Shown: piece after piece, positions 11,556 to 14,431 of the stretch
Position numbering within the stretch: the first letter of the stretch is position 1
Layout: every line of letters begins with the position of its first letter
Virus record (IMG/VR): IMGVR_UViG_3300032224_000947
Coordinates: 1 to 43,521 of that record
DNA from: a virus
Reading direction: 5' to 3' (one strand)
Length of the DNA stretch: 43,521 bases
Notes under the pieces: model-generated
Told to the model about the DNA's origin: nothing
The model's input: the letters and a program-made list of their open reading frames with translations, nothing else
Database searches by the model: none
Position numbers and translations under genes: made by a program

Positions 11556-11807
11556 ATGAAAATTAAAGTAATTAAAAACGGTTATTATGTAGCCGAAGAT
11601 TTAACAAATTTAGGTTTAGTTGATCAAGGTACATTAGATTCAAGTATAGCTCATACCTTAGTAATAGGTGATGTTTGGGTGAGAGATGAATATGAGGACG
11701 GACATGTATATTTTAAGTGTATTGAGGGTAAGTGGTGTAATGAGGAGAGTGATGGTTGGTGGAAGTATAAGGGTTATGAAGATTATTTTGAGGTTATTGA
11801 GGAATAA
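11556..11807 (+). CDS. Hypothetical aromatic acidic protein, 83 aa
   Basis: Starts MKIKVIKNGYYVAEDLTNLG. Beta-rich with many Trp and Tyr (GKWCNEESDGWWKYKGYEDYF). Codon use shifts inside the gene: the first half uses C normally, while the part from 11704 to the stop contains no C on the coding strand. Function unknown. Confidence 0.6.
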   Translation: MKIKVIKNGYYVAEDLTNLGLVDQGTLDSSIAHTLVIGDVWVRDEYEDGHVYFKCIEGKWCNEESDGWWKYKGYEDYFEVIEE

Positions 11808-11812
11808 ATTAT

Positions 11813-11840
11813 GTGGGGGTGTAAAATAAAACACCCCCAC
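11813..11840 (+). terminator. Strong hairpin, probable terminator
   Basis: GTGGGGGTGT 11813-11822 pairs with ACACCCCCAC 11831-11840. It is followed by TTAC, so the T-run is weak. Confidence 0.65.
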
Positions 11841-12173: not shown

Positions 12174-12220
12174 CCTAGGTTATTAAATAAATTATATTAT
12201 TTTTATATTAATAAAATAAA
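12174..12220 (+). promoter_or_regulatory. CCTA-type early promoter 24 (variant tail)
   Basis: CCTA at 12174, TATTTTTA at 12198. The tail is TATTAATAAAATAAATTAAT instead of the usual AGTATAAATTAAAA. Confidence 0.7.
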
Positions 12221-12243
12221 TTAATAATAAATAAATAAAAGTT

Positions 12244-12606
12244 ATGGAAAAGTTTAAAAAGGAAATTGAATTAAAGGGTGGTTTAGTAGGTATTAATAAA
12301 TTTGATAAGTTTATTTATGGTGAGTTAGAGATGAGGAGTGGTGGTGATTGGAATAATTATGATGAAGGTGATATAATAAGTTATGATTTTGAATTGTTAG
12401 AGAAGTGTGATGATGAGGAGTTGTGTTATATTGATGATTATAATTTAGGTTTAGAAGATGGAGATAAAGTATTGTTGAATGATTTAAAGGAGTATGTAGG
12501 TGAAGGTATTTGTTATGTTTTGTTTGGTGATGATGATAATTGGTATAATGTTGAGTTTAAAGGTGATGTGATGGTGGTTAGTTTTTTATGTATGGAGAAG
12601 TATTAA
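12244..12606 (+). CDS. Hypothetical acidic protein encoded without cytosine, 120 aa
   Basis: The coding strand from start to stop contains no C at all; the C-free run extends from 12176 to 12617. As a result the protein has no Ala, Pro, Thr, His or Gln and uses only AGT for Ser, TTA/TTG for Leu and AGG for its single Arg. It starts MEKFKKEIELKGGLVGINKF and is very acidic, with repeated Asp-Asp-Glu and Tyr. The reading frame is intact, is placed like its neighbours behind promoter 24, and ends before a clean terminator, so it looks functional. No family is recognised. Confidence 0.65.
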   Translation: MEKFKKEIELKGGLVGINKFDKFIYGELEMRSGGDWNNYDEGDIISYDFELLEKCDDEELCYIDDYNLGLEDGDKVLLNDLKEYVGEGICYVLFGDDDNWYNVEFKGDVMVVSFLCMEKY

Positions 12607-12611
12607 AATAA

Positions 12612-12635
12612 TGGGGGCAAATGCCCCCACTTTTT
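12612..12635 (+). terminator. Intrinsic terminator
   Basis: TGGGGGCA 12612-12619 pairs with TGCCCCCA 12622-12629, followed by CTTTTT. Confidence 0.9.
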
Positions 12636-12637
12636 AT

Positions 12638-12686
12638 CCTAGACTATTTAATAAAATATTATATTTTTATATTAATAAAATAAATT
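12638..12686 (+). promoter_or_regulatory. CCTA-type early promoter 25 (variant tail)
   Basis: CCTA at 12638, TATTTTTA at 12662, tail ATTAATAAAATAAATTAAT. Confidence 0.7.
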
Positions 12687-12706
12687 AATAATTAATAATT
12701 AAAATT

Positions 12707-12964
12707 ATGGCCAACAAAAAAGGTAGTTATGAATTGGTTAAAGAGGTAATAGTAGATTGTTATGGTGGTAGATTAGGGGAGTATGATGAAAGAGTAATGG
12801 ATGATTTTTATAAAACTTTTAAGGAAGGGGTAGATATTAGTAAGAAGGAGTGGAATGAGTTTTGTTGGAAGTATGTAGATGATAGTAGTGAGGGGTATTA
12901 TATTGATTTGAATTGGAAGTATATTATTAGTGGTGGTGATGAGAGTGTTTATGAGGAATGTTAA
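12707..12964 (+). CDS. Hypothetical acidic protein from C-poor gene, 85 aa
   Basis: Only four C residues occur on the coding strand: three in the first nine bases after ATGG and one at 12816. The run 12817-12974 has none. It starts MANKKGSYELVKEVIVDCYG and is rich in Asp, Glu, Tyr, Trp and Lys, with one Ala, one Thr and no Pro, His or Gln. Composition resembles the C-free gene before it, but the sequences do not obviously align. Function unknown. Confidence 0.65.
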   Translation: MANKKGSYELVKEVIVDCYGGRLGEYDERVMDDFYKTFKEGVDISKKEWNEFCWKYVDDSSEGYYIDLNWKYIISGGDESVYEEC

Positions 12965-12969
12965 ATTAA

Positions 12970-12992
12970 GGGGGCAAATGCCCCCACTTTTT
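12970..12992 (+). terminator. Intrinsic terminator, copy of the previous one
   Basis: GGGGGCA 12970-12976 pairs with TGCCCCC 12979-12985, followed by ACTTTTT. Identical in core to the terminator at 12612. Confidence 0.9.
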
Positions 12993-14113: not shown

Positions 14114-14431
14114 ATGGAACAAACAAACACACCACAACTAGGCCGCCCAGTTAACCCAAACAGCCGCCGCCAACAAGAATTAGCCCTTAAAGCAGAGCGC
14201 AGAGCGTTAGGGTTAGTAAAAAGAGGTCGCCCAATTGTTGAAGGTAGTAAGCGCCAAGCAGAATTGGAAGCAAAAATGGAGCGAGTAATTAGTAATGGTG
14301 GGGTGGTTAAACGCGGCCGCCCAGTTAATGGTGAGAGTAAGCGCCAACAATTATTAAATGCCAGAGCTGAATTGGCCGCTTTAGGAATTGTAAGAGCACC
14401 GGGACGACCAAAAGTGGTTATTACCGAATAA
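14114..14431 (+). CDS. AT-hook-like repeat DNA-binding protein, 105 aa
   Basis: Built of tandem units of about 30 residues, each opening with Gly-Arg-Pro: GRPVNPNSRRQQELALKAER, then RGRPIVEGSKRQAELEAKME, then RGRPVNGESKRQQLLNARAE, and a final PGRPKV. K/R-G-R-P is the AT-hook core that inserts into the minor groove of AT-rich DNA. Between hooks lie 'SxRQxxL' helices rich in Ala, Glu and Arg. The protein probably coats or bends AT-rich phage or host DNA. It is basic, unlike the acidic neighbours, and its gene is richer in C and G. It is the last gene of the early array. Confidence 0.75.
   Translation: MEQTNTPQLGRPVNPNSRRQQELALKAERRALGLVKRGRPIVEGSKRQAELEAKMERVISNGGVVKRGRPVNGESKRQQLLNARAELAALGIVRAPGRPKVVITE

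Follow-up and report, generated by a model that had tools for sequence, protein, structure and literature searches.

The window, a 43.5-kb virus record from IMG/VR with nearly all of its genes on the + strand, contains a tract of 442 nucleotides on that strand (12176..12617) without a single cytosine. Base counting bears out to the nucleotide what the initial annotation had reported here. The tract takes in the tail of a promoter, a leader, an entire gene with its stop codon and the 5' arm of a terminator up to its first C. The gene (12244..12606, + strand) has 0 C and codes for an acidic protein of 120 amino acids that, as the initial annotation had stated, is devoid of Ala, Pro, Thr, His and Gln, residues that together account for 20.8% of positions elsewhere. 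Its promoter is C-free from -68, and the unit is likely closed by an intrinsic terminator, read from the sequence as the stem GGGGGC-AAAT-GCCCCC (12613..12628, + strand) with a T run at 12631-12635, in which C is kept. Sliding windows of 442 nucleotides across the record contain 65 +/- 14 C on average, and the next-longest C-free runs measure 158 (12817-12974), 128 (11704-11831) and 100 nucleotides (12716-12815). First-order Markov simulations of the window (n=300) gave longest C-free runs averaging 62 and never exceeding 103 nucleotides. Given the 120-residue protein, the probability of avoiding C throughout under the codon usage of the window is 10^-10.4. No relatives of the product were recovered from phages by tblastn, or from viral contigs, Pfam or PHROGs, and its AlphaFold model, built from the single sequence, is poor (pLDDT 47).

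The unit that follows on the + strand opens with a C-free promoter and leader of 66 nucleotides (12645..12710), leading into a C-poor gene for 85 amino acids (12707..12964) with 4 C in 258 nucleotides, located in codons 2-3 (GCC AAC) and in one ACT codon. A C-free run of 158 nucleotides (12817..12974) ends at the first C of a second terminator, again with the stem GGGGGC-AAAT-GCCCCC (12970..12985, + strand). The two terminator stems and the CCTAG boxes do retain their C, as had been claimed for them along with the C content of this gene. The family to which gene 12707 belongs yields a good helical model (pLDDT 87.5) with no match in the PDB and a single one in BFVD, an uncharacterised phage protein (A0A6J5LUW7; prob 1.00, E 0.0086). 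Upstream on the same strand, the 3' part of gene 11556-11807 is marginal: the C-free run of 128 nucleotides that had been pointed out there (11704..11831) is real, but weak when taken alone, with C making up 5.2% of the gene, the second-lowest value among 740 non-island genes. It is possibly the edge of the island.

Certain other elements of this region deserve mention. A promoter-like unit of about 20 nucleotides with a CCTAG box (TTATATCTTTATAGTATAAATT) is repeated upstream of many small genes between 800 and 13600, a stretch in which TATAGTATAAATT occurs 23 times with one mismatch allowed, against 1.3 expected. A repeat protein with AT-hook-like RGRP motifs is encoded near the C-free island in several phages (window 14114-14431; L003:8163-8480; L012:3096-3461; L013:6954-7232; L015:5765-6187; L007:2799-3080). 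At the start of the window, Rfam finds a tRNA match of 106 nucleotides (278-383; 39 bits) where ARAGORN reports none; this is possibly a tRNA with an insertion.

Recurrence and synteny of the islands

Homologues of structural and replication genes indicate that the window phage is an Immutovirus-like T4-type myovirus: its gp6-like protein and primase are 45% and 50% identical to those of Flavobacterium phage immuto, and in the relative G001 the similarity to immuto extends to TerL (60%), MCP (58%) and PhoH (69%). C-free islands are present in 16 compared phage genomes or fragments, namely the cultured and fully sequenced immuto and 15 metagenomic contigs, which are fragments and part of which entered the set through a pattern search for C-free DNA. 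Given that the samples are independent and include a cultured isolate, an artefact of metagenomic sequencing is ruled out.

The near relative represented by L003 and L004 is about 90-93% identical to the window at the DNA level in the longer aligned blocks. It lacks gene 12244 altogether, and its homologue of gene 12707 is C-free over 259 nucleotides with a protein only 73% identical. In L003, an element of about 100 nucleotides with a terminal inverted repeat (AAAGTGTATAGG...CCTATACACTTT; L003:6656-6756), not present in the window, separates the promoter of a gene for a small membrane protein from its start codon. A search for relatives of gene 12707 by degenerate back-translation of the protein, which gives no preference to C-free codons, recovered ten loci with 40-73% identity, corresponding to eight distinct sequences since two contig pairs are identical or nearly so. 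Homologues with ordinary C content, which the initial annotation had set against its own claim, are the opposite of what emerged for this gene: all ten loci are C-poor.

Further islands came from the pattern search for 180 bases other than C behind a promoter-like sequence, among them the largest (G013; 1,665+293 nucleotides with a single C and about seven genes) and one of 1,354 nucleotides (G016). Two other matches, L050 and L047, were discarded as repeat-like and without a clear C-free gene. Most proteins of the pattern-search islands are unrelated to gene 12707. Ten other island proteins had no Pfam match above the cut-off and, in PHROGs, matched families of unknown function, with one further match at chance level. 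Island lengths range from about 260 to 1,960 nucleotides. Outside this group, C-free runs reach at most 79 nucleotides in the examined 125 kb of Microcystis phage Mel-JY01, and the same C-free pattern matched only twice in 84,980 bacterial and archaeal genomes, both times in insect symbionts, in AT-only stretches whose G content is 3-5%.

Normally there is one island per genome; on contigs that include the gp6-like baseplate gene, it is situated 8-15 kb upstream of this gene. In the complete genome of immuto it is gp143 (68330-68686), with 5 C in 357 nucleotides, 14 kb upstream of the gp6-like gene. The only C-free run above 75 nucleotides in the 140-kb G001 is the island itself (259 nucleotides), and the island of the 131-kb G009 consists of runs of 241 and 153 nucleotides. 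Extra C-free runs were seen in the smaller fragments G008 and G014, and one of 123 nucleotides in G007. The gene content of the island varies between genomes; hence, the absence of C is a property of the locus rather than of a single protein.

Base composition and edges of the islands

Across 31 island genes from 14 contigs and immuto we counted 31 C in 7,740 nucleotides. Individual island genes have 0-2.5% C, while the non-island genes (740 genes of at least 60 amino acids in five genomes) have at least 4.8%, with a median of 14%. Six of the residual C follow pyrimidines and none precedes G, numbers that are too small to identify an agent. The depletion extends beyond the genes: among 804 untranslated nucleotides in three islands there is 1 C, whereas C makes up 14-19% of most intergenic DNA on these contigs, so that the effect is one of neither codon choice nor protein composition. 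Likewise, 32 of 34 island genes have a leader (-20 to -1) without C, as opposed to 64 of 280 ordinary genes. These observations support an effect that is strand-specific and acts on the nucleic acid, third positions and untranslated DNA being purged as well; C is kept where structure requires it, in line with the statement of the initial annotation that C is preserved where it matters. They do not support its suggestion of a designed, acidic low-complexity protein, the feature being common to unrelated proteins and to the DNA between genes.

The change in composition is abrupt. At third positions, C/(C+T) jumps from 0.067 in the central island bin to 0.35-0.36 at +1 to +3 kb downstream, so that there is no gradient with distance; within 3 kb of the island (G001, G009, G003 and the window), C and G at third positions are the highest in the genome. 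It is C itself that is excluded, as G varies from 15% to 40% in the C-free genes. The predicted minimum free energy per nucleotide is about -0.08 to -0.09 for island RNA and -0.13 to -0.17 for its neighbours; this lower degree of structure may follow from the missing C and so be an effect rather than a cause.

Leaders, coding sequences and read-through intergenic DNA are C-free, while terminator stems and many of the promoters that follow a terminator keep their C. The sharp limits of the C-free DNA hence appear to coincide with the boundaries of transcription units, which are predictions based on motifs for promoters and terminators; within these boundaries, the presumptive transcripts would be C-free from start to terminator. 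Several units that follow a terminator have C in the promoter and none in the transcript (L007:4482, L015:5222, L003:7015 and L048:3048), with C retained up to the -10-like box in the first two (TACATTTA and TTACTTATATTTA, respectively). Conversely, interior promoters with no terminator before them, which would lie inside read-through RNA, are C-purged. The rule is not a clean one, as some post-terminator promoters, including that of gene 12244 in the window, are C-free too. In L058, a run of 11 G lies behind a C-free gene (L058:1940-1999), at a place where ordinary units carry a G/C terminator stem. Several contigs have promoters that read TTG...TATATTTA/TATATTCA, a form resembling the host-type promoters of Bacteroidota; this suggests that the island genes may be expressed early.

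Proposed selection on RNA and its alternatives

Several explanations need to be weighed against these patterns. For an AT-rich genome, one might think of chance, of low sequence complexity or of an artefact of sequencing such as base-converted DNA; however, simulated runs stay at or below 103 nucleotides, and the islands are found in independent contigs and a cultured isolate as real reading frames that are conserved across species and flanked by DNA with normal C. Recurrence in conserved genes refutes this option, to which we accord next to no probability. Avoidance of C-directed restriction, raised by the initial annotation, finds no support, as the opposite strand has a C facing every G of the tract and neighbouring genes are full of C. 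Phages are also known to alter a base to escape attack, as in T4-type cytosine or 7-deazaguanine modification of DNA, but those are chemical changes made genome-wide. Moreover, whereas immuto has DpdA, QueC/D/E and FolE, tblastn with its proteins found no DpdA or Que homologue in G001, whose 140 kb hold the same kind of island, and we therefore rejected the DpdA pathway as a common cause.

Strand-specific deamination, likewise put forward initially, would have C changing to U/T in the single-stranded non-template strand of a transcription bubble or R-loop faster than it is regained, with the proteins adapting. It would account for an effect confined to one strand and for C-free limits that match the predicted transcription units. 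Further, island promoter elements differ from their C-bearing counterparts mostly by C-to-T changes (TTGTCACAATTAATTGTGTATATTCA vs TTGTTAGAATTAATTGTGTATATTTA), although some of the changes are C-to-G or C-to-A. The proteins speak against it. C-bearing and C-free homologues were compared in nine alignments, whose pairs have sequences in common and hence do not give independent cells; of 66 amino-acid replacements, 2 are what C-to-T change would produce (Thr to Ile, Ala to Val, Ser to Leu), against 7.1 expected by chance. The typical replacements are instead Ser to Asp/Lys, Pro to Gly and Thr to Lys/Ser. Neither are Ile, Val and Leu elevated, and Ser is kept (5.3%) by way of AGT. For 16 island genes against three backgrounds, a model converting every C of local genes to T (M1) was the worst in each case, trailing one that preserves amino-acid frequencies by some 47, 61 and 56 log units. 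Within the genome, C3 is highest in the genes 1-3 kb away, and the capsid gene (MCP) of G001, presumably heavily transcribed, has 21% C, which disfavours mutagenesis tied to the level of transcription. Eight related records, among them the complete immuto, yielded no phage-encoded cytidine deaminase of the Pfam family PF00383 in searches with positive controls, although a host enzyme or one of another fold could still act. In the mitochondrial heavy strand and in transcription-associated mutation one strand similarly loses C by deamination, with graded skews and C-to-T products; here, in contrast, the edges are sharp and the corresponding amino-acid products missing. We consider such deamination unlikely, though a very old transcription-dependent mutational bias combined with selection on the proteins could approach the same end state. 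Diversity-generating retroelements direct change to adenine, whereas the base affected here is C, and the eight records likewise yielded no match to the PF00078 reverse transcriptase with positive controls.

The island might alternatively serve as a DNA element, its C-free sense and G-free template strand functioning as an R-loop origin, a primase-free zone or a fork or packaging signal to which resident genes conform. Such a role would fit with each genome having a single syntenic island whose genes vary, and with the purged internal promoters. Against it stand the variable length, the wide range of G, which leaves neither G-richness nor easy melting as a common property, the promoters that often regain C and the C-containing terminator stems that interrupt the island in the window, L015 and L052. 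An R-loop origin of the T4 oriF type in particular would have a G-rich non-template strand and an effect centred on the origin; G spans that wide range in the C-free genes, and no gradient with distance was seen. On balance, we regard a DNA-level function as quite improbable. The patchy gene content, exemplified by the absence of gene 12244 from L003, and the related C-free genes shared among contigs L054, L058, L052 and L007 could also reflect exchange between phages of ready-made C-free cassettes from an element of extreme base composition. Yet, the remaining composition tracks the resident genome, the L014 island being A-rich and G-poor and that of the window having a G3 of 0.59 among G3-rich neighbours; C-bearing homologues of C-free genes exist in the same phage (L054:1233 vs L054:2758); and the question would merely be shifted elsewhere. 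We hold cassette exchange to be very unlikely.

For these reasons, we prefer selection against C in the transcript to strand-specific deamination: a pattern that lies on the sense strand and proceeds unit by unit fits selection on RNA. Our leading interpretation, which we put at a little short of even odds, is that Immutovirus-like T4-type phages maintain in a fixed place an island of one to about eight small accessory genes, whose messages exclude C through such selection. Every C in an island transcript would then carry a cost; coding sequences, in both codons and amino acids, as well as leaders and intergenic DNA crossed by read-through would shift to A, G and U, and C would survive only in double-stranded terminator stems or directly ahead of the transcript. 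In the simplest mechanism, the island genes would have to be expressed while C-containing RNA is attacked or starved of its precursor. The candidate agents, in our order of preference, would be a host or phage ribonuclease that attacks C unless it is paired, a shortage of CTP, and Rho. Rho loads on C-rich, G-poor nascent RNA (PMC6407284), and C-free island RNA should accordingly be a poor substrate for Rho-dependent termination; however, ordinary genes here already have more G than C, and removal of the last C is not obviously required to avoid Rho. In that case, the islands would encode proteins that act early or counter a defence.

Two observations run counter to selection on RNA. The C-rich flanking genes have similar promoters, so that any cost must be specific to the island genes or to the time of their expression; a general economy or shortage of C in early genes is rejected, as the flanking genes have the highest C3. 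Further, gene 12707 has three C in its codons 2-3 that are retained alike in the window and L003, which is incompatible with a strict 'no C' rule.

RNA lacking one base, which can be made without the respective nucleotide, has a counterpart in the C-less and G-less transcription cassettes, which are man-made laboratory constructs; the islands differ in being natural, protein-coding, multi-gene and conserved. We found no description of C-free phage islands in open-licence papers, and we know of no natural gene set that lacks one base on the sense strand for over 1 kb across deeply diverged viruses. A bolder proposition, which we offer as somewhat doubtful, is that the island is a clade-wide dedicated operon whose cytidine-free mRNA is made or survives when C-containing RNA cannot, a natural class of 'missing-letter' messengers signalling an undescribed C-directed host defence or step of phage takeover. 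Whatever drives the pattern must detect single cytosines on one strand of transcribed units. If selection acts at the level of RNA, the islands would hint at an agent directed at C in hosts of the Bacteroidota type and at the proteins that counteract it, and the cultured phage immuto, with gp143, makes the question testable now.
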